64,000 nt of DNA from Clytia hemisphaerica (taxonomy: Eukaryota; Cnidaria; Hydrozoa; Leptothecata; Clytiidae), in assembly GCA_902728285.1 (NCBI GenBank), contig CACVBU010000362.1:908487-972486 (forward strand), given 5' to 3'. The notes beneath the pieces were generated by a model. It saw nothing but the letters and a program-made list of their open reading frames with translations. It was not told the origin of the DNA and searched no databases. Made by a program: the position numbers and the translations under genes. Shown in pieces: positions 19,416 to 43,574 of this stretch. Every line of letters begins with the position of its first letter. Positions within the stretch are counted from its first letter, which is position 1.

Positions 19416-22400
19416 ATGGCGGACGATATACACGAGATAATTACATGTAAAGTATGTCAAAGAGAAGCTGGAGGGGCGCATAAATGTGTCAAATGCAAGT
19501 GCATTGTCCATTCTATTTGTGGAAAAGCTGTTGATGGGGAAAAAGAACGGCATGGCTCTAAGGTTTTGTGTCGTTTATGTTGTAATAATCATGATGGGAG
19601 TAACCAAAAAGGTAACAGTTATCTTAATCATAAACCTCTTAACAAACCTTTCGATTCAAGTCTTTTCTTTCCTCCAAATTGTAAGTTATTTTGCTGTAAA
19701 AATTTGATTGATTACATTTACATTATAAAAGTGAGCGAATTCTCCAATCACAATTTGGAGTAAAAATTAAATTAATAAACAATAAAGGGTTCCTTGGAAT
19801 GCCAAACGGTCTCTAACTTCTTCTTTTGTAGAGACAGATTAGAGCTTGTTTGTTTGCTTCGTTATTATATTACTATAAAGGAAAAAGTATTGGTAAATTG
19901 GCCAGTATATAAGAGACTTTAATATAACCACATAAATTGAAAGGAGGGGGCTTGGTCAATTAGAAATGAGAATATGTTTCCTTTTCCTACCTCTCAAATT
20001 ACATTTGATTTATTCCAGGGTTTAATTTGCTGTTTGTCGAAACATAGATTAAAAAATCATTAGATATTGGAAACTATTACATCAAAATGGATTTCATACT
20101 TCGTTTATTTGTAAACAACTGTTAATAAATACTTTCCTGTTTCGTTGTAATAATAAAGTTGTTAATAAATTCGTTCTAATTAATTTCACCTAGCTTGAAA
20201 ATCTATAGTAGCCTTAAGATAATCCCAGCTTTCATATTTTTTAATGTATTATGTTTACCCTGCTTATTAAAAACAAAGGACCAACTAACAGGAACCTTTA
20301 AATATTTTTTATTTTGTAGCAAAAAGTCCTACTGTTTCGACCTCATTAAAGCCTAAAACCAGGAAACGACCGAATGCTCTTGAATAGTGGACAGGCTCAT
20401 CCAGTAGTGAGGCTCCAGTGGAGAAAAAAGCTGTACGTGAAAAACCAAAAGAGCAGTCGAACTCGAAGTTCGTGTGTTTAGATTGTTTGAGGTTGGCGTG
20501 TGGTGACAATAGTGATCGTGACGAATCAACTGCAAAACTTTGTAGGAAAGACAACACTAGTGTAAACAGGCATAAAAGTCACAGGAAAAATTTTTCGATT
20601 TCCAAGGTTGGAAATTTCAAGTTTTCTTAGTTGGAAAAAAGATAAAATCCAATGGAAAATCCAACCTGGAAATGAGGGACATTCTCCAAGGTTGGAAATT
20701 TTGCATTTTCCATGGCTTGGAATTTTCAAAAATCCAGATTGAAAAAAGCCAAAATCCAAATTTAACAAGGTTAGAATTTTATAAAATCCAAAAAGTGATG
20801 ACACAGATGTGGAAAAAGAGATTATAAACAAGGTTTTTATTTTTGTGAACAGTCACTCGCTAGCCTAGGCCCGATGGCTCCCGGTCAATCTCTCGTTTTT
20901 GTTCGCACAGATACGTAGTTGATCTTAGATCACTCACACAGCTCAGCAGGGCACTATTTGAAACTATGACACAAGTACCCTATGTGCTTCACTGTCCGAA
21001 CTCACTGCGATTGACCGAGGCCGCTCTGAAGAGACGCCTCACCTGACGGAAACTTACAGCTTGACTGCTCACATTATAGCCTAACATCTAGGTTAGCTAT
21101 ACACCAAAACAGTTTTGAGCGAAAAATCGCTTGTGGTTTTCTCAAAGGACATGAGCAGAAAATGGTTACAAAAGCGTAATTTCCACATGGATTTTTAACG
21201 TTTTCCAAACTTTTTGGAGAAACACAAATTTCCAACCCAAAAAGTCTAGTTTTCCAATCGAAAGAGTTTCAATTTCACAAAAATGTAATTTACACATGGA
21301 TTTTTAAATGTTTTCCAAACTGTTTGGAGAAACACAAATTTCCAACCCAAAAAGTCTAGTTTTCAAAGAAAGGGTCTCAATCTTAGAAAAATGTAATTTC
21401 CACATGGATTTTTAACGTTTTCCAAACTGTTTGGGAGAAAGACAAATTTCCGACCCAAAAAGTTTAGTTTTTAAACCCGAGGTATCAAATTTACAAAAAT
21501 AAGTATTTTCACATCGATTTTTGTCTTTTTTTTTCAATTCCCAAACTGTTTTGAAAATAAAAATTTCCCACCCAAAAAGTCATGTTTTCCAACCAGCCTT
21601 GGAAAATTGTCATTTCTATATGGGTTTTTTTCACTTGATTTTTTAAGGGCATTGGTTTATTCTACAAAACCTATGGGTAATTTACGTTTTCCAAATCAGC
21701 TTAAGGTAATCGCTCAAATTTCCAACCTTCAATTATAAAACCAAAATTTCCAACCTAAAAATATTGAATTTCCAACCTTGGAAATCGAAAATTTTTTCCT
21801 GTGAGTAGGTGGCACCAAGTGCAGAAGAATTGTACAATCGTACCAGCAGAATCGTTAGAGGCTCGAAGCATTTTGTCTAAGAGAAAGAAGAATTTAAATC
21901 ATACACAAAAATCGATTCCTGCAACCCCCATTGCCGTAGAAACAGAAATATCTGACAACCAGGCAAGCGATCCAGCAGAGGAAAACGCTGTTACTCTTCC
22001 CATTACCCCTGAACAATTACGTCCTGAAAAAGTTATTAATAAATCTCAATCAACTCTGTTACAATATAGAGTTAGCTCTGTTGAAAAGCCTGAAGAGGAA
22101 GAGAAAGGAACTTTGGAGAAAGTTTTGCAATCACTAGAAGAACTCAAAATTGAAGTTTCGAGTATAAAGAAAGAACATAAAAATGTATGCCAAATCGCTT
22201 ATTCAAATGGAAAGGAAAAAGTCTTGCTAGATTCGATAAAGAATTGTTCTAATATTAACGAATTAAATAGCTGTTGTGATGTTTTAGATTGGTTTTATGA
22301 TGAAGAACTTAAAACAGGCATTTTAAGATGTAAGCCATGCTTCAATTTTCATGTTAAAAGAAAACCCACGCTAGCAAGTCTTATACCAACAAAGGCAGAA
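19416..22400 (+). pseudogene. 5' part of a hAT-like transposase-type gene, broken
   Basis: Exon 1 is 19416-19611, with an intron to 20319 (GT-AG, phase 1); exon 2 starts at 20320. Exon 1 encodes a compact zinc-binding module with Cys/His at residues 11, 14, 24, 27, 32 and 35 and a later CRLC pair, spaced like a cross-braced finger. Exon 2 adds a basic segment, a second CLDC-type module with a later RHKSRWHQ, a Glu/Lys-rich coiled-coil-like stretch and an LRCKPCFNFH zinc motif. The frame contains one in-frame TAG at 20385. It is split by a 1224-bp element (20580-21803) whose removal, with one AGT copy, rejoins NRHKS to RWHQ in frame. It is split again at 22400 by the 12.8-kb insertion; the gene resumes at 35219. 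The assignment rests on the 3' part having a hAT-like RNase H signature. Non-functional as it stands. Confidence 0.6.
20580..21803. mobile_element. 1224-bp inverted-repeat transposon in exon 2
   Basis: Ends CACAGGAAAAA-TTTTCGATTTCCAAGGTTGGAAAT are inverted over about 36 bases. The flanking trinucleotide AGT (20577-20579, 21804-21806) is duplicated. A CAC start with a 3-bp duplication fits EnSpm/CACTA-type elements; Harbinger elements also give 3 bp but usually TAA/TTA. The interior carries about four diverged copies of a unit with CCAAACTGTTTGGAGAAA and TTTCCAACCCAAAAAGTCTA, typical of subterminal transposase-binding arrays. No transposase frame: non-autonomous. Confidence 0.75.
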
Positions 22401-22439
22401 GAATTCTTGTCGAAAGCAGCCATCGAGGCCAAATGATGG

Positions 22440-22850
22440 AAAAGCCGTTCCGGAGACCCCCCTCAGCTGGAAATGGCCTAGGCGTTCCGGGAAAATTTCA
22501 AAAAGTTTGCTCCTGGAAATGTATAGCCGTTCCCTGGAAAAATTTTGAAAGTTCTCTAACAATTCTCCAGCTGGAAATTCACACGTGTTCCAGGCTGATT
22601 TTACGGCTGATTTTACGGAACTTTTTCACAGCTGGTAGAATTTTGAAGCTGTTCCTTTAACCAACTAGCTGGAAATCTGGAGCCATTCCTGGGACGATTT
22701 CTAGCTTCCTTTTCTTTTTTTTTGAGCCGTTCCTTGAGTTAGCCAGCTGGAAATCTGAAGCCATTCCTGGGACGATTTCTAGCTTCTTTTTCTTTTTTTC
22801 TGAGCCGTTCCTTGAGTTAGCCAGCTGGAAATTTGGAGGCGTTCCGGTAG
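22440..22850 (+). repeat. Left subterminal array of AGCTGGAAAT/GCCGTTCC motifs
   Basis: AGCTGGAAAT occurs five times, each followed after a few bases by a GCCGTTCC variant, often joined as GGAGCC-TTCC. Two neighbouring units near 22670 and 22746 are almost identical over about 75 bp, including CCTGGGACGATTTCTAGCTT. The same motif pair makes up 34707-35110, in the same orientation. Confidence 0.7.
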
Positions 22851-22885
22851 GTTTTTTCAGAGCTTTAAAACCAGCTCGGATCAAG

Positions 22886-23003
22886 ATGTTTCCTGGAAAA
22901 GCACCCTACTGGAGGGGAACGGCTCATTTTGATGTTTTGATTCAGCTGATTTATTAAAAATTGACCCGTTCCACTGCAGTAGGGTACTTTTCCAGAAACC
23001 AGG
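22886..23003. repeat. Inverted repeat at the inner edge of the left array
   Basis: TTTCCTGGAAAAGCACCCTA at about 22888 pairs with TAGGGTACTTTTCCAGAAA at about 22979. The arms run on through GGAACGG and CCGTTCC. Total arm length is about 38 bases around a 45-base loop containing TTGATTCAGCTGATT. Confidence 0.55.
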
Positions 23004-23434
23004 AACGATTAATTTATAATGCAGTTGAATTTTCTAGCAAAATATACCCGTTTACTTTTTTCCGACAAAATATTAAAAAACTCAATCGCGAGTTCACCGT
23101 TTACAAGGCGAGAAAAAAAGATCGGTTACTAGTCTTGCTCAAAACTCGATCTTGGAGAGTAATGGCGAAACAGAAATGTTTTTTGAAATTTTTCACTGAT
23201 TCTCGTATTGTAAAGGGATCTATTTATCCTTTAGCAGTGTTAATATTAACTGAATTAGTTGTTGACATCATTCAACTATACGTGTATAAAGTTTGTAGGT
23301 GTATTTTTCAGAGATGATGGAGATACAGTTAGATATAATTTTTAAGGGTGAAATTTAAAGTGTCTAGCAAATGGTTACCAACTGCCAATATGGATTACAA
23401 AATGCAATAACATCTCTGTATTTTGAAATTTTAG

Positions 23435-24357
23435 AACTATAGAATCATGCCTGTTATAAGTCTCAATCAAACTACCTTTAAAATTTGGATGCAAAAGAAA
23501 AAAGAGCTTGGATATACACAGAAAACACACAGTGCATCAGGGGGGGGGCACGCAGTTACTACAAGACATGATGTGTAGTAAGTGCTTTTTCAACACTTTT
23601 TTTCAGGACCACCACCCTTTGCAGTTACTACACCTTGGTAGTAACTGTTTTCAGAAAAGATTTTCAGGTACCACCCCTGATTTTGAGTGATATCATCAAA
23701 AACATGCTCGAAATTACCCTAAATTGCGATTATTTTTCAACCTAACCTAAAGCCATTTTTGTGCTAGATTTTCTTTTAATTTACTTGGTTAACAGCTGTT
23801 GAGAACATTTTAATGATAATTAGGGAAAGCATAATTTCAAAGTTGGGTCTGAGAAAAATTTCAAATTTTTTTTCGTCCATTTATAACAAAATATTTTTTT
23901 TAACAAAGAATTTTTTCACAAAAAAATTCATTTTTTGTGAAAAATTTTGAAAGTTCTTTAAAAAGAATTAAAATATAAGCACTTACTACACCAAAAGTGC
24001 TAGCGTTAGTGTTTGGCACCACCCCCAAACAGCAGTTACTACACTGTGTAGTAACTGTTTTCATAACTTCTGAATACAGTACCACCACGGTAGTAAGTGT
24101 CATACTGTCTTGTAGTAACTGCGTGCCCCCCCCCCCCCTGGTGCATTTGCACATTTTCTGGTAACACATCTGACTGCTGGTGAGAGTGAAAGTGAACCAG
24201 AAACTGATTCCTCAAACAGCCTACAAAGTGAAACAGATGAAGAATTAATTGTTGCTGATGTTATTGAAAGTGGTGACGAACAACAGACTGTTGATGTCAC
24301 TGGTGGTCTAGAACCTGAACATGATGATGGCAATGCTCTTCTTCAGCAAGATACAGA
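23435..24357 (+). pseudogene. Exon of a transposon-like gene with an acidic tail, split by a MITE
   Basis: After the acceptor TTTTAG (23429-23434), an open frame runs to the donor GTGAGT at 24358, once the MITE at 23538-24140 and one GTGCAT copy are removed (314 coding bases). It encodes a module reading F-IWMQKKKELGYTQ-THSAFAHFL, followed by a strongly Glu/Asp/Ser-rich stretch. A W..KK.E.G...AFA.FL pattern followed by an acidic region is known to me only from N-termini of invertebrate transposon-type proteins; that link is inference. It ends in phase 2, which fits the exon at 26735. It lies inside the 12.8-kb insertion and is probably that element's own gene or an earlier passenger. Confidence 0.5.
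23538..24140. mobile_element. 603-bp hAT-like MITE
   Basis: The left end CAGGGGGGGGGCACGCAGTT and right end AACTGCGTGCC...CCCCTG are inverted repeats (continuing ACTACAAGAC/GTCTTGTAGT). GTGCAT is duplicated at 23532-23537 and 24141-24146. CAGGGG termini fit hAT; a 6-bp duplication fits the short-duplication hAT groups. Removing it restores an open coding exon across the site. The interior has several AGTTACTACA/TGTAGTAACT motifs. Non-autonomous. Confidence 0.75.
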
Positions 24358-24429
24358 GTGAGTGATTCTTATAAATCCCTAAATTGCAGTAGCAATTTTT
24401 ACTGCAATTGCGGTATAAAAACCAGGCGT

Positions 24430-24760
24430 AGTTAATCGATATAATCGATAATCTTGAGTAATCGATAAATAATTGATAAGTAATCGATGGATTAGATATC
24501 GATTAACTGATAGAATCGATAGGTAATCGATACTCAAGATTTTTTCAAAGCTCGATTATTTATCGATCAATTTTGTCATCGATTGTTTATCGATTATAGA
24601 TCGATTATACTTCGATTAAATTAAGTATCGATTAAAAATCGATCGGCTATCGATCACAGCTTTTTTGATCGATTACATATCGATCATAAATTGATTAATC
24701 ATCAATCAAATAGTTAATCGATCAACTATCGATTCGTGATCGATTATTTATCAGATTTTA
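24430..24760. repeat. Array of ATCGAT palindromes
   Basis: About twenty or more ATCGAT/ATCGATTA/TCGATAA units occur in about 330 bases, at spacings near 8 to 15 bases, with no longer period visible. The core is self-complementary, so the array can pair with itself on either strand. It lies just downstream of the acidic exon, in what would be an intron. Confidence 0.7.
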
Positions 24761-26318
24761 GGGAGTTTGGATTAACGTTCGACAATCGAATTTCAATCGG
24801 TCGATTGCGTTCTCGATTTGGTTCGACTGGTTCCATCGTCGATTCCGTTCGATTGAGATTGTCTGGCCGTAGAAAGTACGCGAAACATATGCAAAAAGGA
24901 AGTATTAATATAAAACTTACATGCATAATTGGCATTATATTAAAGTAATCTTGTTGAAGAAAGATAAAAAATTTCCTTCTCTTGAAATCTAAAAATTTAA
25001 AACGGCAATTCGGCCACCATTTCACCGAACCTCCAAAGTCATTTGATTTTCAGTTAAGGAACGGCGAATTTAAAAATACACGATTTCACTTTCAATTTAC
25101 AGTAAGTGAAAATACAGACCAGATATGCAACAGTCCCATGTTTCGACCAATCGTCCCAAGTTAGAGTAGTCGACGGTACCCAAATCAAAACAACATTTTA
25201 CACGCAAAGAATTTTTTAGTAGACCTTTTTACCGAGAACTGAAAATAATAAAAAGAACCCAGTTTCCTTTTGAATCTAATGTGACCACCATACTGGCCGT
25301 CACGGCGTGCAGCCTCTTAGCGCCTAGATAGCGTGTGTTTTTGATAAATAAGGAAGGGGAAACCAGACTAAGTGTGCAAATTATTTTTATCACGTGACTT
25401 GAACGTTGAAGCGTAATAAAGTTGTAAAATTTTAATGATGGATGTTGTAAAATTTTAATGATGGATATGAGAAAGTGAAGAGAAAGTTTGCATGCGCTTC
25501 ATACATGTTTTTTCTTTTATAAGCATAACGTTTATAAGCATATGCAGGCTCAGTTTTTGGTACCTAAACAATGGCTCTATTGTTTGAGAACAATAAAATG
25601 CTAAGCATAATGCGAGCCTGATGTAGGGGCAGACACTTGCTTATAAAAAAAAAAACATGTATGTTGTGTAAAATTGTATATAATTTGGTTTCTTTTTTAA
25701 TTGAAAGGATTGTAATGTTTACTGAACTTCTAGTTTGATGGATGAACTTGTTTGATAAGAATGATACCAAGAATTTCATTCAAGGTTTGTTTTGAATAAA
25801 TATAAAAAATAAAAAATAGAAAATTTGTATCTTGTTTGTCTCAAGCATAAGAATCGTAAATTCCCTGCTAGCACTTCTGTTTTTTATTCAAAATTACCTA
25901 AATGTAAACAAACTGATAACCCTTCCATGGACAAAAATTTCATAAATTGCCAAAATAAAAAAAAAATCTGACCGACCAACCCACCTCCACAATCTAGGGT
26001 CAGGTGATGGCAAACCAACAATTATTTAAGCCCAGCCCCAGCTAGATCTATATCGATTCTTTTTTTAAATTGAAGCAAATTATAGGTCCTGCTTTTATAT
26101 ATCATCACAACTCATTGTTGGTGCATTTTTATGTAAACAAAACTTGAGTTCACATTTTTGTCTGATTGTATGTTTGATGGCTTTTTGAAAGGAACTTATG
26201 TTCAAGAGTAGCTTTTTAAAAAGCTATTTCAAATTTTTGCTTTCAGATCTCTCAATGTAACCCTCAATGTAAATATAATTCGGATAAAATCAAAGAATGA
26301 ATGACTAATTTTTCATAG
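24761..26318. other. Non-coding interior of the 12.8-kb insertion
   Basis: Intron-like AT-rich sequence; no gene or paired terminal repeats recognised. A direct duplication of GTTGTAAAATTTTAATGATG occurs at about 25425-25461. Confidence 0.4.
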
Positions 26319-26378
26319 GAATGTTTGATGATCAAATGTACTCTACAACATTGGGGAAAGCATTGAGCACAGTCATCT
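26319..26378 (+). other. Possible small exon
   Basis: A 60-base segment lies between an acceptor (TTTTCATAG) and a donor (GTGAGTAT). One frame reads MFDDQMYSTTLGKALSTVI, which looks coding. Its phase does not fit the preceding acidic exon, so it may be a decoy, an alternative exon or decayed. Confidence 0.3.
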
Positions 26379-26734
26379 GTGAGTATAACCTTTTTAAACT
26401 GAAATTCTATTACTACACATTTTAATTAATGGAACTGCTGTAAACAACGTCACTTCTCAGAGCTAAATGAATTAAAAAAATTTTCTAGCTATTTTCATTG
26501 AAAAGTATGAATTCTGGCCCAAATACTTTTAAAAGGCTTTTTCGTGAAGGTGAATGCCTCTTTATTATATTAAAAATTCTTAACAAATTGCAAGAGTTTA
26601 TGCTTGTATTCTCACATTCAAATTTTTTTTAAATTTGAAAATCTTTGAAGCTGTGAAATCAAAATTTAAAATGTCCCTAGTAGTAAAATCAATCATTGCC
26701 TTAATTTTAAGACTGACATTTTTAAACATTTTAG

Positions 26735-27059
26735 AACTGCTGATAGTGAAAGAACAATGACTGAGAGTGAAAGAACATTGACAGCATTAAACTTGTCAAC
26801 ACATGATGAAGGAAAAATGAGTGGGTTTTTACAGAAATGGCAATGAACTTGTCAAGGAAATTTATTCAGACAGATAGAGGGAATCAGAATCAAGTGGCGA
26901 AGAAAAATCTGCACTAAATGTAGCATCCTTGATGGTGGACAAATAAGTGACTGATAATGAATATGACAAGGATATTGATACATACACAGATACTGAAACA
27001 GAATCGGAAAGTTCAAGTGATGAAGAAGAATCTGATACGGATCAAATTGAATATATTGG
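26735..27059 (+). pseudogene. Decayed acidic exon of the same transposon-like gene
   Basis: It follows ATTTTAG and joins the 24357 donor in phase (GA+A), continuing TADSERTMTESERTLTALN. The frame is then broken near an A5 run at about 26814. It resumes in another frame through an in-frame TAG and a TAA (26944) to an Asp/Glu/Ser stretch (YTDTETESESSSDEEESDTD), and ends at a GTATGT donor. The acidic composition matches the upstream exon. The breaks show that the gene is dead. Confidence 0.45.
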
Positions 27060-27185
27060 GTATGTTTTGCTTACTTTTTACTTGATCATGATATCCAATC
27101 TGTTTTTCCACTGGTTCTCAACTTCAATTGAGCTAGAATCTGAGAATGTATGTCTGTTAGTCAGTCAGTATGTCACCTCAATAAA

Positions 27186-27300
27186 ACATTTGGACAGACT
27201 GGAGACTTCAAAAATGGTCAGATTTGGCTTAAATTTTGCTCACTTGTTCCTTGTTTTGTGTGAATATCTGGGGGTGTTTTTGAAAATTTACAATTTTGTA
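27186..27300. repeat. Fragment of the 9.1-kb repeat family
   Basis: GACTTCAAAAATGGTCAGATT, then CTCACTTGTTCCTTG and ATATCTGGGGGTGTTTTTGA, match the element at 9130-9420 in order and spacing. Confidence 0.5.
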
Positions 27301-28054
27301 CGCAACAACACAATGGCCTTACTTTTTTCTTTCTTTGTTTGGATATGTGACAAAATTATGTGGTTAGCTCGGTTGAAGTGTGCCAATGATTATAAGATGG
27401 TTATCTTTCAATTAGCAAAATGATTTCCTTTCTGATTTGATTTGATACACATGTTATGGATATAGCATGTGGCTCCCTAGATTTTGTAGAGGAGGAGATC
27501 TCCTATAAACAACTTAACTTAAATTATTATGTTTTAATAGCTAAAAAAAGACATGGGTACGAGCTTTTTGCTTATAGCTATATAGGTAAATACTTTTGAA
27601 ACATGAGCAGCCATGTGTCCTACATACAGGTGACAGGGAGAGATCCATCCTCAAAATTTGGCTTTGCTTCAAAGTTTTACTAGCCAAAGGAATATTCTTG
27701 CTAAACATAAGATGATTATGTTTATATATTTCCTACTGTCTGGATTTCTGTCTCATTTGAATGGTTTAACTCTTTAAATAATACACAAAGAAATAAGAAA
27801 ATAACATAAGAAATTTATTAAAGTTTATGAAAATGTTTGACTTCATTTGTTGTTTCTATTTATTATCAACACTTGCCTTTAATTCATGGACATATACCTA
27901 AACTTCCACTTACATTTTCATTTGTCAGATATTTTTATGATCAGCCAGACAAAGTCAAGAAAATTGAGATACAAAAACTAATATTTTGTAGTACGAGTGC
28001 ATAGTGCTTTGTGACTTGGTTTATTGTACACTCAATGATCGATATATTTCATAT
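27301..28054. other. Non-coding sequence
   Basis: AT-rich; nothing recognised. Confidence 0.4.
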
Positions 28055-29240
28055 CTAAAAAATTTGGGTTGGGAGACAAGATACATGGTGACGACGCGCC
28101 CCTCGAACTAGCTTATTTTTTCTATTTATTTTTTCATATTTTCATAGATTCCAGAGTTGTTTGCGACTTGCCTGTATCTTGTGATTTTTCAAAAACAAAA
28201 TTGTCTCTTGGGATTGATATGGAGCGACGCGCTCCTTCTTCCAAGGCGTTTGCGAACTACAATACTTTCCCTTTGAGATGATTCATGCTAAATGGCATTA
28301 ATAAGCAAAACGATCATAAGAAAAACCACGACAAAGCATCACAGTGTGTTCATAACCAATACAGTTAGTCAGCGTTTAATGAAATATTATTTTGTTAGAT
28401 CTGGTCAGCTTAGTGGAGTCAGTCTTGGTTTACTTGTGATTTGAAAAATCTAATTTCATATCCTAAAAAATTTGGGCTGGGAGACGAGATACATGGTGAC
28501 GACGCGCCCCTCGAACTAGCTTATTTTTTCCTTATATTTTTTCAAATTTTCTTAACAATATATATATTTTTAAATTTAGTCAGGAATATTTTTTCCATTT
28601 TATTAGAAATTAGGGATTCCAGAGTTGTTTGCGACTTGCCTGTATCTTGTGAGTTTTTCAAAAACAAAATTGTCTCTCGGGATTGATATGGAGCGACGCG
28701 CTCCTTCTTCCAAGGCGTTTGCGAACTACAATACTTTCCCTTTGAGATGATTCATGCTAAATGGCATTAATAAGCAAAACGATCATAAGAAAAACCATGA
28801 CAAAGCATCACAGTGTGCTCATAACCAATACAGTTAGTCAGCGTTTAATGAAATATTATTTTGTTAGATCTGGTCAGCTTAGTGGAGTCAGTCTTGGTTT
28901 ACTTGTGATTTGAAAAATCTAATTTCATATCCTAAAAAATTTGGGCTGGGAGACAAGATACATGGTGACGACGCGCCCTCGAACTAGCTTATTTTTTCCT
29001 TATATTTTTTCAAATTTTCTTAACAATTTATATATTTTTAAATTTAGTCAGGAATATTTTTTCCATTTTATTAGAAATTAGGGATTCCAGAGTTGTTTGC
29101 GACTTGCCTGTATCTTGTGAGTTTTTCAAAAACAAAATTGTCTCTCGGGATTGATATGGAGCGACGCGCTCCTTCTTCCAAGGCGTTTGCGAACTACAAT
29201 ACTTTCCCTTTGAGATGATTTATGCTAAGGCATAAATAAG
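28055..29240 (+). repeat. Three tandem copies of a ~470-bp unit
   Basis: Units start with TAAAAAATTTGGG-TGGGAGAC near 28056, 28463 and 28936. Each contains ACGACGCGCCCCTCGAACTA, AGAGTTGTTTGCGACTTGCC and the hairpin GGAGCGACGCGCTCC. Copies 2 and 3 are nearly identical; copy 1 lacks about 60 bases in the middle, and the third is cut at its 3' end. The close identity indicates recent tandem duplication. No conserved open frame. Confidence 0.75.
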
Positions 29241-29618
29241 CAAAAAAGATTGTAACCAAATCAATACCAAGCTACAGTTTATTTATATACCAAAGACATG
29301 AAGTTAGATAACTTATGATGAGAAATAATTTGAGAATGTTTGTCTTTGTTTTTCTCTTCATCTGCCTGTCTGTCTGTCTGTAACTTCAAAGATGTTCGGT
29401 TTTTTTGGGTGAAACCTGGGGTAGTTTTTGTTTTAACCAATAGGTTTACAGTTTCTCAGGCTTTGTCATTTCAAAATTCCAGAATCATTCCAAAATTGCA
29501 CTCCTAAAAAGTACTTTAGGCATGTGATGAGGAGTGCTATGAATAACTTTAGTAGTAAAATCCAAATTTATGGCCTGTGTTTGATCGCACTCCTCAAGAA
29601 TTTTAGGTGTGTGTGAAT

Positions 29619-30072
29619 CCCGGGGGAGGTACTAGGATTGATGGGTGTCGGGTATGTGCGTGCCAGACCTCTGGACCCTTACCCTTAGAGAGACTGAATT
29701 TTGGTGAAAAGGTGACCCTTAGAGAGACTCAGTGTAGAAAAACCCAACCCTTAGAGAGACTTTTTCACAAAAAATTTCTATAATGGGCCAAAGAAATTCG
29801 ATTTTTAAAAGAATTTCTCCAATTTTCGAAAAATTTCTCTAATTTTTGAAAAATTTTCTCACTTTTTTTAAAAATGTTCTCACTTTTTTGACTTTTCACT
29901 TTTCTTTGACCCGAGTTTGTGAAAAAACCGACCCTTAGAGAGACTGATTTTGACTTTTGTTGTTTTGGTAACCCTTAGAGAGACTTTGGGAGGGTGAAAA
30001 ACCCTACCCTTAAGGCACGCACATACCCAGCACCCATTTTTGCCTAAGTACCCCCCCCCCCCCCCCCCCGGG
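29619..30072. mobile_element. CCCGGGGG-type MITE with CCCTTAGAGAGACT repeats, copy 1
   Basis: The left end CCCGGGGG and right end CCCCCGGG are inverted and flanked by GTGTGAAT at 29611-29618 and 30073-30080 (8-bp duplication). Inner inverted sequences include GGGTATGTGCG and CGCACATACCC. The interior holds repeated ACCCTTAGAGAGACT units. An 8-bp duplication is usual for hAT, but the CCCGGGGG end is not the usual CAGGG. A long C run lies at the right end. Confidence 0.75.
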
Positions 30073-30080
30073 GTGTGAAT

Positions 30081-31036
30081 CGTTAATTCAAACAACTGCG
30101 ACCCAAGTTTTTCTTTATACATACCATAGATACAACAGAACATAAATTTATCTTTAAAAAGCTTTAAGCACTAAAATAAAATCCTCCAAAAGCCAAAGCA
30201 AGCTTGGAAACACAAAAATCCTTCCTCTCGCTAAGGGCCTTGGTTTGAAAATGTTTAAATCAAAATGTCTCGTGGATTTCAGCGAATGGCAACATTTAGT
30301 GGGAAAGAGGATTTGCTGACTATTAAGCAGCCTCTATAAGAAACTTTTTCGTTAAACGATGAGCAGAAGCCTAGAGACTTCCAAAGACTTAAAGGGGAGT
30401 CTTTTATTTTCAATTTCCTAAAGGGGGTTACCACTTAACAGGGGGGATTCCCATAAATATCTGTTCCCATGATAATACTTGAAAATAGTATTTCTCAACC
30501 AGTACTATTGAATTATTTCCCCTTGATAATGATATTGTCTAACCTTTTTAACAATAACCTTGTCATTCAAGGCTTCAGGGGACTGAACAAAAAAATTTAA
30601 GGAAGTTTTTATGGGTGTTTTTGAGGAGATGTAAATCTGAACCTTTTCAGTCTTGAACCCAAAAATTCAAACCTTCAGACAGACAGGAAATCTAGTACTA
30701 TTATTCTGGAAAGATGATTCAAGTTCTTGTTGTTTTTGTTTTGATTTTTTTGTTTACTCATGAGGTCTTGGAAATGTTCTCAATCTACACGTTCTATTAT
30801 TAGTTTTAACAAATTACCAAGATAACTGCTTTTGCAGCATTCTTTGAATGCCAAATTTAAGATGGACTGAAATTAATAATTGAGTTTTAAAAAGAAATCA
30901 TTTGCTAAAAGAAAACTATTCAAATAATTGATAACCAAATATGAGGCACTATCCCTATCACTGTTATCCAACTTGTCAGATTGTCATACTTTGAAATTGA
31001 ATTTCCTCTATTTAGCTTATTTAATTTCTTACTTAG
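30081..31036. other. Non-coding sequence
   Basis: Nothing recognised beyond AT-rich spacer and short G-rich stretches. Confidence 0.4.
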
Positions 31037-31111
31037 ACAACATTTCAGAGGAGCCGTGCTTTCAATATGTGAGAGGACCTGGAATATTAGTTGAAAATTC
31101 TTCTTGCACTT
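31037..31111 (+). other. Possible exon fragment
   Basis: A 75-base segment lies between an acceptor (CTTAG) and a donor (GTAAAT). One frame reads EEPCFQYVRGPGILVENSS, with coding-like composition. It could be a further exon of the decayed gene in this insertion. The phase does not match the 27059 donor. Confidence 0.3.
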
Positions 31112-32717
31112 ATGGTAAATGAGAAAGTGAAAAATATGACTTATTTTAACTGCTTCTGCTTACTAGTTTGTTTTTAATTTGATTGTCTTGCCTACTTTTA
31201 ATTATGATTTGTTACATTCTAGTAAATTTGTGTTCCTTTGAATGAACTACTATAGCATTTTTATCTACGTTTTGTTGATACAATATTTTCAAATTGAAGA
31301 AAAAGTTTGAATCAAATATTTGTAATCTGATTAATTTTTTTTTCACTCTAGTGATCAAGTGATTTATTTTGATGGATAATCAGCATTCAAAAGATGTCCA
31401 AATTGAAGAAATGGTAAAATTATTGTTCTTGGCTTTAATGGAATATTACATTCTGCTGGGGTCTCAAAAGGGGGTGGCAAATGTTTCATTTCAGGGAGAT
31501 TCTGAAAAGGAGAAAGAAGGAGAGCATGGGAAAAAAGTTCTGACAAAGCTCATACCATTTGCAGCAAATTTATTACTTAGCAGTTGAAAAATCGTACATT
31601 ATTGGTTAACTTACAAAGGGCTGAATCACTTTCTGAAAAGTATGCATATTTTTGGCAAAATTTAAGAATAATGGGCTAAACGTCTCAGAGGGAGGGGCAA
31701 AAGACGTTTCCATTTTCTGGTTTGGAAGGTAATTTTTGGTTTACAGACATTGGAAAGGAACCTTTAGACCGGATGATGGAAAAAAAATTAAAATTGAATT
31801 GTTTTTTTTTCAAACTTGAATTAATGGTTGAGAAAATAAAAGAAATGTGTTTTGAGATACCAGAAAACAACGAAAGTTTTGTAGTAGTTAATTTGTGTTA
31901 ACGGTGCCATTAAGGAAAGCATACAGTATTGGAGAGCTTTTGTTATTTCCTTTCTATCGCATCATACCATTTCATCCGATACGATCAGTTCCATTGATAT
32001 CCTGTGTGGCATGACGCCTGCTTTTAACCATGCAGATCATGGCTTATGATTGAAGCAATTCCCTTTCCATTTTAGCTGTTAACTGGATGCTGGACATTTA
32101 TGCTGCCATACGTTGAAGTTCTTGAACGAAATTTGAAATGATAACAACGTGATAATACTTCAAAAGACTGCCATCGGAGAAAGAGTATCGTGCTATTTCG
32201 ATTGATTGACGGAGAACAAATTATGGTAAACGATCGAAAGAGACAATCCAACTTGTAATGGTTATATATTGCATGATTTTTTTTAGAAGCATACAAAAAT
32301 CCGAAAACAGGCTCAGAGATTCTTAGGTCGAAAGCTTGATAAGACTGAAAAATGTTTGAGGGGATGCTTAAATCTAAAGCATAAATTTAGGAAATGCTGA
32401 AAATCCGTGAAATTCCAGCCAAAAAAGCCAAAATCAGGAAAAAAATATTTTTGGTAGGCTCAAGCAATGCTTGCCATATGCTAAATTTTTCCCTATATCT
32501 GAGCCTAGATATGCTTATAAGTGCAATGCTTATAAACAAACATGTATTCTGCTTTCACTGAAACTTTAACTTGGTTATTAAAGACTGACAATTGACAATT
32601 CAACGCAGACTATTTCATGAAGGAAGTAATGCATCATAAACTCTCGACGCCTAGATATTTTTCAATTTATTGTACTCTTATTAGATCAATATAATTCTAT
32701 GATTATTTTGTAAAAAT
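31112..32717. other. Non-coding sequence
   Basis: Short open frames near 31.4 kb have no recognisable product. No repeat ends paired. Confidence 0.4.
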
Positions 32718-32978
32718 GGGCTCTCCCAGAAAAAATTGTACATGGGGGGTGGAGGATATTTTGTCCGGGGGTAGCAAAAAATCATCAAAATTTGCCTTGT
32801 CCGGGGGGTAAGTTTGCTCTGTTCGGGGGTAATTTGGGGTGTCCGGGGGGTCAGCAGATGCTTGTCTGGGGGGTAAAACCTATTGTCTGGGGGGCCAAAA
32901 GTCACCCTGTTCGGGCGATAAATCACTAAAAATTGTTATATCCTCCACCCCCATGTACAATTTTTTCTAGAAGAGCCC
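32718..32978. mobile_element. GGGCTCT foldback element with TGTCCGGGGG repeats, copy 1
   Basis: GGGCTCTCCCAGAAAAAATT, then GTACATGGGGGGTGGAGGAT, is mirrored at the right end through ATCCTCCACCCCCATGTAC to AGAGCCC. The interior holds about six TGTCCGGGGG/TGTCTGGGGG units. AAT occurs directly outside both ends but is weak evidence of a target duplication. Confidence 0.65.
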
Positions 32979-32999
32979 AATACATGGAAAAGATAAACC

Positions 33000-33292
33000 T
33001 TAATTAGTCTAACCGAAAATAAACCCTTAGAGAGGTAAAATTTTCTTTTTTTGGGAACCCTTGGAAAGACTTCCTAAATTTTGGTTGATTTTCACCAAGT
33101 TTTGTTCGAAATTTCTGGGAATTTTGACCCTTTCTGAGGGAAACTCTCGATTTTCGTGATTTTGGAACTACTCCTTCAGAGACTAACTTATAAATCTACA
33201 CCCCATTCGAGAGACTTTTGAGGCGTGAAAAAAAGATATCCTTATGGCTCGCACATACCCGTCTCCTGTTTTGATCAAGTGCACCCGGTGGG
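33000..33292. repeat. Partial CCCGGGGG-family copy
   Basis: Contains degenerate ACCCTTAGAGAG and CGAGAGACTTT units and the right-end motif GCTCGCACATACCCGTCTCC, ending near CACCCGG. It resembles copies at 29619 and 34251, without an identifiable left end. Confidence 0.5.
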
Positions 33293-33362
33293 CTCCTTTG
33301 CTATGCTATCAAAATGTTCGAATAGTGCCTTCAAAATTCCCAATATCCAGAACATTCGGATT

Positions 33363-33622
33363 GGGCTCTTCCAGAAAAAATCCGTTCATGGGGGGTGGAG
33401 GATGAATTGTCCAGGGGTATTGAAAAAATACCAAAAAATTGCAATGTCCAGGGGGTAAATTCCAATGTCCAGGGGTAATTTTTTGTGTCCACGGGGTTGA
33501 TTTGATGTTTGTCCAGGGATTTAACCCGTGTCCAGGGGGTTAAAAATCAAAATGTCCAGGGGTAATTCATGAAAAAAATAATATATCCTCCACCCCCCAT
33601 GAACGGATTTTTTCTGGAAGAG
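33363..33622. mobile_element. GGGCTCT foldback element, copy 2
   Basis: GGGCTCTTCCAGAAAAAAT, then CCGTTCATGGGGGGTGGAGG, is mirrored by CCTCCACCCCCCATGAACGG and ATTTTTTCTGGAAGAG. Internal TGTCCAGGGGGTAA-like units replace the TGTCCGGGGG of copy 1. The stem bases that differ between copies (GTACATGG versus CGTTCATGG) change on both arms together, so pairing is kept. Confidence 0.65.
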
Positions 33623-33709
33623 AATTTAAATAGACTTTTAAAGTAGTGTTTTTTCCGCAGAAGGGCCTTTTGCGAACTTTCTACTTGATTCTCGACCTTT
33701 GAATAAGTA

Positions 33710-34201
33710 CTTTAATCGTAGAAATTTTAGCGAGAGTAATTTTAGCGTATATTAGCGAGTCAGGAAAATCTTCATTTTTTTTGGATTTATTTTAGCGAAT
33801 CACGATTTCAAAAAATTTCGCGTGGATAAATTTTAGCGAATACTTATCTGAGAAAATTTCGCGTGGATTAATTTTAGCGAATCACCATTTCCAAATAACT
33901 TTTTGAGATGTATTTTGGTGAAAGTTCGAGATATAACGGAGGTTCGAGATAAGCTTGTGTTTTTAAGCCTACATTTTCTTACAGAACTCTAGGGACCGAC
34001 AAAAATAAATATCTTTATTAGTTTTCGCAGAAATCGTAAAAAAATAGAAGAAAAAAACTGGATTTATTTTAGCGAATTGCGTTTATGAAAATTTTAGCGA
34101 TCTGTCGATTCGGCGTGTTTTAGCGAGATTAATTTTAGCGAAAATAGGGAAAACTCGCTAAAACGCTAAAATTAGTCTCGCTAAAATTTCTACGATTAAA
34201 G
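33710..34201. mobile_element. TA-flanked MITE with TTTTAGCG repeats
   Basis: The left end CTTTAATCGTAGAAATTTTA and right end TAAAATTTCTACGATTAAAG are perfect inverted repeats, continuing into GCGAGA and TAATTTTAGCG. TA flanks both sides (33708-33709, 34202-34203). More than ten ATTTTAGCGA units lie inside. The TA target suits Tc1/mariner-type mobilisation. Confidence 0.7.
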
Positions 34202-34250
34202 TATACGCCTGTGATAGATTCTCATGGCGTTATACTCTGCAACTATCGTC

Positions 34251-34651
34251 CCCGGGGGGGGGGGGGGTACTAGGGTTGGTGAATGAGGGGTATGTGCGGA
34301 TGGGACCTCCGAAAACCGACCCTTAGAGAGACTGATTTTTGCTGAAAAGGTGACCCTTAAGAGAGACTTTTTGAAATTTTTTTTTTAGATTTTTGAAAAA
34401 AGTGATACCATGGGGGAGACTTTATTACAATTTTTTCTCTGGAAATCAAAAAATTTCCTAAATATCTTGAATTTTCCGACCCTTAGAGAGACTAATTTAA
34501 AACTTTCTGAATTTTCCGACCCTTAGAGAGACTAATTTAAAACTTTCTGATTTTTCCGACCCTTAAAGAGACTTTGAAAGGTGAAAAAACCGACCCTTAC
34601 CGTCCGCACATACCCATCATCCATTTTTGCCTAAGTACCCCCCCCCCCGGG
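34251..34651. mobile_element. CCCGGGGG-type MITE, copy 2
   Basis: CCCGGGGG and CCCCCGGG ends are flanked by CTATCGTC at 34243-34250 and 34652-34659 (8-bp duplication). The interior has about seven CCGACCCTTAGAGAGACT units, two of them in a near-identical 57-base tandem pair. The perfect duplication and conserved ends suggest recent insertion. Confidence 0.8.
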
Positions 34652-34706
34652 CTATCGTCACTTGAAGGACTGCCAAATGCCTGAGTGCTACATTTTCACC
34701 TCTTTT

Positions 34707-35110
34707 CAGCTGGAAATACAGTGCCGTTCCCATTAAATATTGTAATCATTCTAGGCAATTTTGGGACAGTTATTTTTGCATTTTTATTTCCAGCTGGAAA
34801 TAGAGAGCCGTTCCCATAAAATATCTATATTGCTCTAACATTTTTCCTTTTTTATCTCCAGCTGGAAATAGAGAGCCGTTCCCATAAAATATCTATATTG
34901 CTCTGACGTTTGCTACATTTATTTTCCTTTTTGATCTCCAGCTGGAAATAAAGAGCCGTTCCTATACATTTGTATATCTCCTCCTGGCAAATGTGAACGG
35001 CTATTTTAAGGAAAAGGTCGAAACTTTTTTTTTGAGAGCTGTTCCCGTGCAATTTGTTCCATTTTTCTGGCATATTTTTCTTTTCCAGCTGGAAATTTGG
35101 AGCCGTTCCG
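34707..35110 (+). repeat. Right subterminal array of AGCTGGAAAT/GCCGTTCC motifs
   Basis: Five AGCTGGAAAT units are each followed by a GAGCCGTTCC-like motif; those at about 34799 and 34859 share about 50 further bases. These are the same motif pair as the left array at 22440-22850. Confidence 0.7.
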
Positions 35111-35218
35111 GACAACCCGATTATGTTCATTTTATAGAAATTTTCTCCTGGCTGGCAAAAAGGAACGGCTTTTTCGTGTTTTGCCTCGGTGGCTGCTTCT
35201 GTCTTGTCTTCTTCAGAA

Positions 35219-36420
35219 CGTAATAGTTTCTCGATAGGAAAAGTTACAGAGGAGACTCTTGCTCCAAGCTAATTATTGGAGAAAATGAATTTTGGTACCG
35301 CCAGAAACACAGAATCATTGAACACATATGCTTAATCGGAAAAGGATCCGTGTTACATAAAAAAGCAGTCCAAGCTTACAATGAAGAAAATGCTCGTAGA
35401 CAAAAATCCCACGCAATCACAGCAAATATTTTCCGCTGTGCAGTGGCCGATTTGAAAATAGGAGCAGCTGCCGTTCATTTCGAGACACTTGTTTCACTGA
35501 TTTCAAGCTGTGGTGGAAATGTAGGTTCGATTGGTCACGGGAGAAAGAATTTTAATGATATTTGCTACTGTTTGGAGGCCGTAGTAAACAGACAGACCAA
35601 CAGATGGCTAAAAAGCTCACTGAAATCTACTGGAATACCACCTCATTTTTGGTCTACATTGGACAAAGCAACGCCATCTCGGGTAACTAATCAGGCAGTG
35701 CTAATTGTTGCAAGGAATAATGACGGAAACCCTTGTCCGATTCCCATAAACTCCCCAGAGGTTTATCAGCAACCTAGTGAAGCATTGTATGACATATTAG
35801 CAGAGCAAATGATCACAGCCATTAAAGAGAATTTATCTGCAGATCTTTTCACGCGGTATTTTTTAACTTGATTTTTTGGTTTTTGAAACGTAGATATTCT
35901 TAATGATTCAATGCACAACTAATAAATAGTAATAGCTGCTCTGTATACTGGTACTCAATTGATTTAGATTTTAAACATGTATTACTGACCAAATATTTAG
36001 ATTTTTTTCCTAGCTCATACAATAATCCTGCACATTTAAGATTATGTATTCAGCTATTATCTTTAAAAACTGTATCAGCTTTTAAAAACTGTGGGGATTT
36101 CACAAAATACTATCATCCAAGTGATAGTGAAGGCAATTATACAAATTCTTTAAGAGATCCTTTCAAATTTCAGGCTTTGTGTTATTGCTGCTGATGGCCC
36201 ATATCAGGCATCCAATTTTAAGTCTGAACTTCGAGACTTGTTGGGATTAAAGGGAAACGACGAATTGCAGCTTCCGATAACGTGGGATCCCGGTCATCAA
36301 GTGAATTTAGCTGTTACAGATATTTGTGATTTCAAATCGCTTACTGGGGAGTTTCTCTCAACGTTCATCAAGAGATGCAATCTTTTTAACCAGACTTTTC
36401 CCATGAAAATTTCTTTCTAA
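35219..36420 (+). pseudogene. 3' part of the hAT-like transposase-type gene, broken
   Basis: It resumes at the 12.8-kb insertion junction with RNSFSIGK, then shifts frame near 35268 and continues KLIIGENEFWYRQKHRIIEH to the donor at 35856. Exon 3 is 36174-36420 (acceptor TTTCAG); the codon CG|G is rebuilt across the intron. Motifs fit an RNase-H-like hAT-type core: W-TLDKATPSRVTNQ, VIAADGPYQAS and WDPGHQVNLAVTD, which resembles the hAT H-NL signature. It ends at a TAA directly after RCNLFNQ, without a donor, well short of a full transposase, so the 3' end is missing or diverged. Transposase, or a host gene derived from one, is the likely origin; the exact family is uncertain. Confidence 0.6.
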
Positions 36421-39400
36421 CATATTCTGGAAGAGCCTACTCATTTTTCTCTTAAAAAAGCCGTTTGTATGAATGAACCAATTTTTTAACATTCGAGCAA
36501 CTGATAATTCTAGCTACTTCTAGCTGATATATACATGAAAGATGGAATATTGCTAAAAATGCTAAAGTCTCTATAACAAATTACAAATTGGCACACGCCT
36601 ACTAATATAAACTTAAATAAAATCTAATCTTTACGATCGCATGTGAGTGGAGTTTGCCTGAGTAAGGAACCTTGTTTTTTCTTTTTTTCAACGATACCTT
36701 AGATGTAATTGAGGAATTCCTCCATTTGACGGGTTTGACCTGTCAATTATAGAAAAGATGTTTTAAATTCTATTAGGTTACAGTATCCTATCTATATCAT
36801 TCATATTTCTCCTTTTCTCTTGAAAAAAAACTCAATACTTAAGGTGGCGCCTATAGATAAAATTTAAGTAAGTGATGGATGGATGAAAAAAAAATAGAAA
36901 AATAATTCAAGTTTGGTTACTTTCATCAATTTTTTGAAAATTTATTGGCCTTTTTCATCAAAAATGGGCCGAAAAACGCATACATCCTTGCACAAAAAAT
37001 CTCAAAAACTACAAAAGCTATAACCATAAAACTTTACATGCTGTTTACACATGTCATGGTCTATGTTCTGAGTTTTTTTCAACGAAGAGAAAAAAGTCGG
37101 GTACAGCCTGAAAATACCCTAGTTTCTTAGTAGCGGCATAACCACGGCATAACTATTATTATGATTGTTATACGCGCTAAATCCGGCTAAGCCTTAGTAT
37201 TGAAGTAGCTTATTACTTCGTAGTATATTCAGGTTGAAGCCAACTATTTACCTGACTTTTGGAGAGTTAAAAAATCAGTCATGTTGAAGTTGATGAATGA
37301 CCAATGACTGTTGATAACAGGTTACAAGGTATTTACTTCTTTATCCACTCATCATGATAACTTAAGAAAGGGGGGTCGAACTATGGATTTTTTTGTGATT
37401 TAGTTTTTAGTTTTTAATTCTTAAATACTTACCAAAAAAGGGTTGTTAGTAGAGGAGGGGCTGGTTTTTTTCCAATTTCAGCCAGGAACCTCGTTGGTCA
37501 TGTTGGGGAGCTTAAACCTGATGCAGCTCGTAATTTTTTTGCAGGCATGGTTTAGATATCTAAAGGCCCTTGAAAACCACCTGATCTGTCTATAAAGAGT
37601 TATCGTGAGATTGCAGCAATGGTCAAACTTGCATCGGTTGAGGCTAACCCCAGGCTAACAAACATGGTAGAGTGGACCTGTGAGCTGAGCTACGTAGTTC
37701 ATTTGTTTTGAAATTTTGCTGCTTTGATTGGTCAGTCATTTGATGGCAATGTAAGTTTCCCTCCACTGATGCAAGTTACCCGACTTACAGTCAGGTACAT
37801 CCTAGTAAATGAACAGGGTATTTTTCACTTGCGACCATTGGCAAATTAACGGGGTCGAAAACGAAAGTGACGTAATAGCGCCGAATACCCAGTTTAATTG
37901 AACCGGGTTGGAAATATTTTGCTTCATTTCAAAGAACTGCATAGATGAAATTTTTTTTTCCATGGGTCATTTTGTCTTTGAAGATTGAAGAAACTTTTAA
38001 TGAAAAAATAAAGTTCCCAGTTTTCTTCCTTTTTTCCCTTTTTCAGTTAGAAGTTCATTTTTATTCATTTTCACGCTTTTAGCCTGAGACGTCCTATCTC
38101 ATTTACACTCGGTGACGAATACCCCATGCAAATGCTCACCCCGTTCATTTGCCAGGATGTGCCTGACTGACTTAACGGTAGTTCATGTAATGTTTCCACA
38201 AATACACGTATGCATGCACAATTTATCCTTTTTTAGTCATTAATTACATAAAACACAAAAAAGTAATGAATATGTAGGGGTGGTAGTCACTGACCAAGGT
38301 TGGGGTTTGTGGGACGACACCAAAATGGGTTTTTCCAGAAAAAAATTGAATATGAGAGGGGGGGGTAGAGGATGTAACATTTTTTGGAAATTAATAACTG
38401 ACGGAAAATCAATGTTGTCCACAGTAGGGTAACGGACTATAGCTGGAACCGCCCAATGTGGAAATGTGCCTCAGTCTCAAGCCTAACGTGTGAGAGTTGG
38501 CACCTCTGGGTATGATTTAAATTCAATATTGTCAAACGCAATTGTATTTCAATGACACACTTTGATAAGAATAACTTTTCCTCAGGGTGGAATATTTTTA
38601 GCATTTTTTTTCACTTTTCTGATCTGACTGATGAAACTTTTACCAATTCAGGAATTTTTGTTGAGCTCACCTTCCTGAGGGTTTTCTAAATGTATTTTGA
38701 CAATTTGGCCAATTTTTAGAAAAGAAAATACTAATAAATAAACAGAAGCTTTTCTTATTAAATAGTGTGTAATAGTAATTGAGAATGCCATTTTATTGTT
38801 CAATGATTGACTTAGATTGTTTTGCAATCTTTTGTCGATCAAGTTAATTTCTGATGCTCTTCCCCATTTTAAAATGTTGTGCTTCTCAAACAGAAATGCA
38901 ATAAATTTACATCAATGCGTTTGGTAAAATTGTAAACCAATCAACTTAAAGTTGAAAACAAGCTGTTCGAACTAATCAAACAGTCAAAGTCACTATACGT
39001 GACTTTAGAATTTTTAATCCAATCAATCAACAATGTATAACAATGTGCCCTCCCGGTTATTACCATAATGGCTTTATGGCAACTCCTGAACTTGGGCACA
39101 GGATGTGCGGTTACACATTTTGTGGATTGCATTGTGGAGTCACAAGAGTGCTCAAACTGCGAGCAGCAAGCAATGCATAATGCAAATAGTGAGCGTCTTA
39201 AATAAAGACTCTCCACCCAATCCAAGAGTGCTCAAACAAAAGCAGTGAGCCAATATCCAATCCAATCAATCAAGAAAGAAAACTTAAATTTGATTTTGGT
39301 TTGATTTATTCAGCCAATGACTTTGATTTATTTGGTAACTGAATAATTTGATTAAATTCTGGTTTTTAAGCGTTATAAATTTAATAATATGATTAATACC

Positions 39401-39488
39401 AATAGACCAAATTAAATACCCTTCTGATGAATTTAGTATATAAATCTAATAAAAACATATAGTATTATTTTATCAACTTTCAGTCATC
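36421..39488. other. Non-coding sequence
   Basis: No gene recognised. A single arm of the GGGCTCT foldback family (TTTTTCCAGAAAAAAATTGA followed by GAGGGGGGGGTAGAGGATG) lies at about 38329-38380. Confidence 0.45.
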
Positions 39489-40376
39489 ATGTACACAAAT
39501 GAAATAAAAAAGTGGTTTCAGAGTTCTTTATCAATTAAAAGACTAGATGAAGCACCAGTTTCGTTGTCCACTCTGGTGGAAAATTTTAAAAATTCAAATA
39601 AAGACACTATAACCTTGAGTAATGGTGAATTCAAAAAGATTTTAATGAAACTTTTGGAAAACAAAGAAATACCATTCAACTGTAAAAAAGTAAAATTTAG
39701 AGGAAAAAATTCCACTTTAATCTCAGGAATAGGATTAAAACCAGTTGAAACATCAAATAAAGTCTCAGTCATTACTCCATGTATTGGTCATGAGGATGTC
39801 AAAGAAAGTGCAAATGAGGAATGCAAAGATAAAAAAGCTGTAGAATACCAAGAAAATTTTCAACGTGAGCTGTTGTTTGAGCAAGTTGATTTACCCTCGA
39901 CAAACACAAATACTAATACAAATGAGACAGAAGCAAAGTGTAATGAGTGGAAAGATAAGCAAACGTTATTATCCGAGAGTTTTGATCAAAGGGATGCAAC
40001 TAGAATAAATAATTGCCAAGAGGGGAGTGTTTTGACACAAGATTGTTTCAAGGATGTTAATTTGAATAACCATGCTAATGTGATGTGTTCTGATAAAGTT
40101 TCTGAAATAAAAGATAAAAACATTTGTTCTAAGAGACCTCACGCTGATTCTAATATCGTGATTGTTCATCTTTTCTTTTTACTCCAAATAATGATAGATC
40201 TTGTTCAGATTGTGAAAGTTATTCTAACACTGAAATCAATGAGCAGCTCAGTTTTGTTTCCAGCTCAAATTTGTGTTCATCGTTTGGTTCTAATGAAGAT
40301 ATTCAATTTTATTCAGATATTGAATCTAACAGTGATGTGGACTATTCTGTCCAAGGAAGTTCTAATATAGACAATA
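39489..40376 (+). pseudogene. N-terminal segment of the Ulp1-fusion gene, interrupted
   Basis: It starts at an ATG shortly after a possible acceptor (CTTTCAG). The first ~85 residues (KWFQSSLSIKRL; LSNGEFKKILMKLLENKEIP; KFRGKNSTLISGIGL) look like a small helical DNA-binding domain. An acidic Asn/Ser-rich linker follows. Near 40170 the coding frame shifts beside a T5 run; beyond it the other frame gives PNNDRSCSDCESYSNTEINE up to the Harbinger insertion at 40377. Coding composition is sustained on both sides, so this is the broken start of the protein that continues at 43575 rather than an independent gene. Confidence 0.55.
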
Positions 40377-40655
40377 GGGACCTTACGAATCGACGACGCC
40401 GCTATAGAAGACGTCGTGAGAACCAAAGGTTTCGAGCGGCGTCCTTTTAACAACGTCTTCCTTTTATATCTCCCTACGAATTTTTCATCGAGGACTTCTA
40501 TCTATTTTCCCGCGATAAAAAAAGCCCGCCATTATAATGCGCCATATTTGTTTACATTTTTAGAAAGGTTATCGTAGAAAACATCCAAAATACTCATTCC
40601 AAGAAAAACACAAGTTTTTAACCATTTCCAGGAAAATCAAGTCAATGTTTGCAGA

Positions 40656-43074: not shown

Positions 43075-43574
43075 GATGCTAAAAATGTGAAAACATATGC
43101 CTGATTAATGCTTACATATACAATAATTTGTGTCATTTTACCTTCTTCAGATTGTATATGAATAGCCAGAAAGTTGCACATTTAAATCGAAGAAGTGATA
43201 TCCAATTTGTTTCCAAATCCAAGAGCAATCAAGGCAAAAGGCATTTATGTTTGTTTTGGTTTGAAATTTGGAAAATTTATGCCCAAAAATATAAAATAAT
43301 TGGTTAGTTTTTCAAGTAATTATATCTTCTAAATGGAAATTATCAAACTCCAATGGATTCAGCTTAAAAATTACGTTTTTTTTGTCAAAGTTTCATCAGA
43401 TTTTACTTCAGCCATGTTTCTTCGAAGGACGACGTGAAAAAGACTGTTTTGAAGGAGTTGACCTCACGAGGCCGACTTTTTGCAAAAGGTGATTCCCGGG
43501 CACGCATGCGCATAAGGAGCAAAAATGGCGCATACGGCGTCATCTAAAGCGGCGTCGCCGATTCGTAAGGTCCC

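Follow-up and report, generated by a model that had tools for sequence, protein, structure and literature searches.

Target site duplications (TSDs) of 6 bp are described for hAT6 elements (PMC12730594), for Polintons, and for IS3EU and GingerRoot elements, the last two with TA..TA termini and GingerRoot occasionally with TG..CA (PMC10045372). Dada elements duplicate 6–7 bp; terminal inverted repeats (TIRs) are missing from Dada-U6 and Dada-U1, and Dada elements with definable termini lie in small RNA genes (PMC3706591). Mutator-like elements (MULEs), which are prone to taking up pieces of host genes, are assigned TSDs of 8–11 bp (PMC6446971), and a range of 4–10 bp is given for IS256 and MuDR together (PMC10045372). 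Here, we describe a large transposon with a 6-bp TSD at positions 22411–35201 of a 64,000-nucleotide stretch of the Clytia hemisphaerica genome (the window; GenBank assembly GCA_902728285.1, contig CACVBU010000362.1, positions 908,487 to 972,486, forward strand). Exact ends, a TSD, an empty site and sister copies are available for this transposon family, which does not clearly fit any of the families checked. It also carries the first half of a transposase-like gene together with the upstream region.

The transposon (+ strand) spans 12,791 bp with nested insertions included, begins with CGAAAGCAGCC and ends with GGCTGCTTCTG. These boundaries are common to seven other full-length copies. The 6-bp TSD, TCTTGT, lies on both sides, at 22405–22410 and 35202–35207, neither copy being assigned a strand. 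The element splits a coding frame on the forward strand into a left part, open at 21768–22410, and a right part at 35208–35871, which changes frame ~33 bp past the site. A host-protein query carrying X across the frame change gave 21 matches in the genome. The match on C897 (query 29–206) spans the insertion site, which lies at query ~64, as do matches on C156 and C907 at 56% and 34% identity. The C897 paralogue, L039, is continuous: aligned to the joined flanks of the window element, it is identical at 685 of 714 positions, with one TCTTGT and zero extra bases at the junction. L039 is an empty site at base level, and the window element really jumped. The paralogue on C156, L040, is diverged (207/310 identical), has small indels close to the insertion point and is of little further help. 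About 33 bp past the site, where the frame changes in the window, the window copy and L039 differ by one base, and the C897 match contains both a stop and a separate frame change; the interrupted host gene copy may therefore be a pseudogene. A Pfam search of both halves of the host frame gave zero matches.

These boundaries differ from those of a first-pass annotation of the window. That annotation had recognized a ~12.8-kb insertion that interrupts a coding frame and whose removal preserves the reading frame, which is borne out, and had placed its edges at CAGAA, read as a 5-bp duplication, which is not. Homology among copies runs from 22411 to 35201 instead. In a genome search with a left-edge query of 1,001 bp, it mostly starts at query base 111–112 (window 22410/22411), ~10 bases inside the earlier edge. 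L039 reads CACAA at the left CAGAA, and the actual duplication is the 6-bp TCTTGT. With 106 occurrences of CAGAA on the + strand of the window, a matching pair is no surprise. The earlier cut also stayed in frame because it removes 21 bp (7 codons) too many.

The genome searched comprises 417 Mb in 951 contigs. The left-edge query matched at least 102 pieces, with 40 of 71 first-look candidates scored. Eleven copies were fetched for comparison, and both ends were found in seven; each of these starts with CGAAAGCAGCC and stops with GGCTGCTTCTG, like the window copy, and the terminal 11 bases are identical in all eight main-family copies with both ends. Counting nested insertions, these seven are 10,644–18,814 bp long; the least interrupted family copies measure ~10.6–12.5 kb. 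Exact 6-bp duplications flank eight of the nine elements with both ends read, namely the window copy, all but one of the seven other full copies, and C635, a 7.5-kb element (TSD TCTATG) whose subfamily shows ~77% similarity at the left end. The same test at lengths 3–5 and 7–9 gave matches in 0/9 elements. Four fetched copies (C342, C205, C245 and C162) stand outside this count, as their right end was not seen in the fetched stretch; two contain runs of N.

An 18-base terminal pattern, CRRAAGCAGCCAYCGAGG, with at most one mismatch occurs at 191 genome places (94 + 97), and the reversed control at none (0 + 0). The checks proposed in the first pass, for other genomic copies of the ends and for an empty site in a paralogue, were thus both positive. 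Pairings of ends rest on 100 of the 191 places. Among these, end pairs in the right orientation and 10.6–18.8 kb apart comprise the eight copies read, C255, C473 and two on C735; on C242, a right end lies 14.8 kb from a left match of the left-edge search. The eight full copies are 93.8–95.9% identical in all 28 pairwise comparisons. Such star-like similarity is the pattern expected from a burst, and the spread of the family appears burst-like. Two end pairs of similar length, ~34 and ~36 kb apart, were also seen on C904 (L042) and at C41:195909–232131. They were rejected as an autonomous copy: a 7-kb C904 piece, 10–17 kb inside, is without similarity to the element.

Shared ends and genome pattern counts define the TIR cores as CGAAAGCAGCCATCGAGG at 22411–22428 (+) and CAGAAGCAGCCACCGAGG, on the − strand, at 35184–35201. 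Repeat analysis and copy comparison place arrays of CAGCTGGAAAT and GCCGTTCC motifs at 22411–23000 (+) and 34690–35201 (+), the right array in the same orientation as the left. Both the imperfect inverted termini and the arrays inside the two ends had been noticed in the first pass. On the left, comparison of the main and diverged subfamilies shows CAGCTGGAAAT-type motif columns identical at 136/140 positions and the terminal 20 bases at 72/80, against 1354/2260 for the rest. On the right, where C635 alone was compared, the corresponding values are 50/65 for motif columns, 19/20 for terminal bases and 270/435 for the rest, C635 being without one motif unit. Motif offsets are mostly preserved between the subfamilies. 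This conservation suggests, without amounting to proof, that the subterminal array is a binding platform. C635 lacks subterminal GCCGTTCC and reads GCTGTTCC at the aligned places (window 22444–35109 versus L029 286–7807). Neighbouring CpGs read TpG; together, these differences may reflect founder CpG decay or a binding-site switch.

Inside the left array, the element carries half a gene. By blastn, positions 23016–27102 (+) align collinearly with the first part of L038, a multi-exon transposase-like gene on another contig, upstream region included. The blocks lie at element offsets 606–4692, at 69–84% identity, and include sequence before the L038 ATG. Exon 1 encodes 101 amino acids (aa) at 23447–24358 (+) and is split by a nested insertion into 23447–23536 and 24143–24358; by eye, a GTGAGT donor overlaps its last codon. 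Downstream on the same strand are two putative internal exons conserved in L038, MFDDQMYSTTLGKALSTVI at 26319–26378 (edges by eye) and TADSERT... at 26736–26843, and a putative acidic exon at 26902–27060 (one stop, present in all nine matched copies). Exon 1 was found in 12 copies, the window copy included, several of them with frame breaks. Genome-wide, it occurs at 18 family places and in 12 diverged relatives elsewhere, by our own grouping of 39 matches. Among the 12 family copies it evolves as if neutral, with 18 non-synonymous to 6 synonymous changes versus 2.78:1 expected. Between gene lineages it is constrained, with a ratio of non-synonymous to synonymous rates (dN/dS) of 0.23–0.38 and synonymous sites near saturation.

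In both L038 and the related L041, the later exons code for a domain containing G-D-RSDSPG, TTDAS and SLDVWH; the 361-aa frame of L041 contains GDGRSDSPG...TTDAS...SLDVWH (DxxH). L041 matches PF20700 Mutator weakly (E 4.2e-4, 19.8 bits, cut-off 26.5), with further sub-threshold Pfam matches to HTH_Mga (E 0.0093) and 3H (E 0.089). Searches of PDB, IMG/VR and phages with L041 returned zero relatives, and an AlphaFold model of L041 was not used, its mean predicted local distance difference test score being 39. The later L038 exons, searched by tblastn at E ≤ 1 against the window, the 11 copies and four sister loci, gave stray acidic-exon matches only (E 0.16–0.89). In a relative of the carried gene, a 1,958-aa open frame (L037:3541–9414, −) lies between exon 1 and the later exons; we presume it to be BEL/Pao-like, as a candidate label only.

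Fixed termini at unrelated places, a TSD of fixed length and an empty site identify the element as a TIR/TSD cut-and-paste DNA transposon. The six frames of the window element matched zero Pfam families at E ≤ 1. In the neighbouring Harbinger-like element, the same read-through method gave DDE_Tnp_4 at E 1.2e-21. The six frames of C635 gave only DnaA_N at E 0.061. Whichever origin the half-gene has, the element is probably non-autonomous and moved in trans. A trans-acting transposase would bind the terminal repeats of ~18 bp together with the CAGCTGGAAAT arrays inside each end, and would then excise the element and integrate it at a cut staggered by 6 bp, leaving the TCTTGT duplication. We infer the cut-and-paste mechanism with its 6-bp stagger from the anatomy of the element, and likewise infer trans movement, the binding role of the arrays and the direction of gene acquisition.

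An insertion whose flanks join in frame could in principle be a normal host-gene intron. This reading was rejected, and its chance is negligible: the 96%-identical paralogue L039 is uninterrupted at the site, the same sequence with the same ends is found at other genomic places, and the 6-bp duplication is exact. It is also improbable that the element is autonomous and encodes a transposase of an unrecognized kind. The interior is well conserved, and Pfam is without some transposases, so that six match-free frames are compatible with one. However, in a listing from 120 aa, the seven other full copies hold a sole stop-free stretch of at least 150 aa, that of 414 aa in C193, and exon 1 is unconstrained within the family. 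Greater weight attaches to a third alternative, in which the window element is a deletion derivative and the half-gene the leftover of its own transposase. Autonomous copies of the L038/L041 type with these ends would then have driven the burst, an account compatible with movement in trans. We consider this a genuine possibility, though the less probable one. In its favour, the gene is found immediately inside the left end, in forward orientation and with its upstream region, as would also be expected of a remnant, and the L041 frame has the DxxH motif and the weak Mutator match. Against it, L038 pieces have zero Mutator matches at E ≤ 1 and only other sub-threshold ones (DUF5098 at E 0.0014 and two more). 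Furthermore, none of the 58 genome pieces of the L038/L041 domain falls between element ends, as judged by eye among the 100 of 191 ends listed. In end scans of L038, which covered 1.2 kb before the gene and 1.8 kb after it, element ends were absent and no TIR/TSD pair was convincing.

The sister subfamilies also argue against a remnant, as they are without the gene and share another spacer in its place. C635 shares both subterminal regions and part of a 469-bp unit with the main family, and for C218, of which 3 kb was read, sharing covers the left subterminal region as well as the 469-bp array; exon 1 is unmatched in C635 and in the 3 kb of C218. At the place of exon 1, C635 and C218 have a diverged spacer in common, with a local score of 146 compared with 118 for the best of 60 shuffles. 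For the main family against the C218 spacer, the score is 95, with a best shuffle of 108 and a slightly shorter C218 query. Because these subfamilies without exon 1 share a different spacer, we favour acquisition: uptake of the half-gene by the main subfamily would be the simplest history, and we lean towards it. The element would in this respect resemble a Pack-type (gene-capturing) transposon, as it carries a gene fragment that exists elsewhere, with a remnant of its own gene as the alternative. Several points weigh against acquisition and trans movement. The spacer comparison is one diverged alignment, and the position of the half-gene just inside the left end, at the expected start of a transposase gene belonging to the element itself, agrees about equally well with a deletion derivative. 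The window copy retains one 158-aa stop-free stretch (26947–27423), which extends out of the acidic exon into intron-like sequence. The TSD of C949 is unmatched and counted as the miss among nine, and the analysis turned up no transposase that acts on these ends. A more specific form of the deletion scenario appears unlikely. It would assign the ends to an undescribed DxxH-type (MuDR/hAT/P/Kolobok/Dada-like) lineage making 6-bp duplications, with the L038/L041 family, below Pfam cut-offs, as its multi-exon transposase. If the partner were indeed of the L041 type, a transposase family below Pfam cut-offs would be tied to a defined 6-bp transposition chemistry.

The first pass had named no superfamily and had proposed a candidate undescribed element. 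Assignment to a named superfamily failed here too, and the element looks like a member of a non-autonomous family mobilized in trans, not like a new type able to move by itself. Its right end, ...CTG-3', and its subterminal arrays resemble those of hAT elements. Its left end is CGA, not the CAG of hAT termini, and Pfam found no hAT domain in the six frames of the window element or of C635. The 6-bp TSD in eight of nine elements agrees with the value reported for hAT6, and membership of hAT6 is possible. Polintons encode DNA polymerase B and an integrase; an intact, coding Polinton was rejected given the zero Pfam families in the six frames of the element. The carried half-gene's relative L041 has the weak Mutator match, and the 6-bp TSD falls outside the 8–11 bp of MULEs (PMC6446971) and inside 4–10 bp (PMC10045372). 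Since the latter range covers IS256 and MuDR, TSD length leaves room for a Mutator relation. IS3EU and GingerRoot, alike in having a 6-bp TSD, were rejected because the ends here are CG..TG rather than TA..TA or TG..CA. The TSD also falls within the Dada range; Dada was rejected, as the element has TIRs, is inserted in a coding frame and shows zero Rfam matches within 21000–36500. Non-autonomous families of the Ac/Ds type differ in having a known autonomous partner. The element is not named in the listed results of a literature search, which is not proof of its being undescribed.

The window copy hosts several younger insertions, none assigned a strand. Five are private to it. The insertion in exon 1 (23534–24141) has an empty site in 6/6 sister copies tested. 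That at 25500–25660 is empty in C721 and C228, with longer intervals in C816 and C352 and C949 and C275 unplaced. The insertion at 29613–30070, with a 9-bp duplication GTGTGAATC by eye, is empty in 5/6 tested, C275 being unplaced. Those at 33360–33622 and 33708–34203 are absent from 6/6 copies tested. Compared with these sister copies, the five are younger than the element; without them, the window copy would measure ~10.8 kb by our sum. A sixth, at 32717–32979, is polymorphic in the family, with a base-level empty site only in C228, intervals of 295–382 bp in C816, C352, C949 and C275, and C721 unplaced. The earlier view of a single large DNA transposon hosting other elements was right, given the shared ends, other copies, empty site and nested empty sites, and its count of at least six is supported, the sixth by C228 only. 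A tandem array of a 469-bp unit (~2.4 copies) occupies 28046–29293 (+) and is the one that also has matches in the subfamilies of C635 and C218. We rejected a 7-kb inner element bounded by TATAAGCAT ends near 25500/32547, as other copies are collinear there. Segments 34240–34660 and 29613–30070 are relatives of one small element, ~80% alike; the latter is private, and the former falls where each of the seven other full copies also matches. Nested in C193, the 414-aa open frame (L022:4332–5573) is rolling-circle Rep-like by eye and has no Pfam match.

Elsewhere in the window, a PIF/Harbinger-like element at 39453–43104 contains DDE_Tnp_4 within 40578–41732 (E 2.5e-22) and a charged open frame at 42373–43104 (−) with zero Pfam matches. 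Two long open frames of 279 and 1411 aa at 43712–48796 possibly represent another transposon gene; the 1411-aa frame has only a sub-threshold RickCE_cat match near its end (E 0.045). Helicase pieces (Helicase_C, DEAD) at 59498–62889 (−) are RecQ-like by eye, and such helicases are carried by some transposons. A dense array of long direct repeats, at most 95% alike, occupies 52929–54640.

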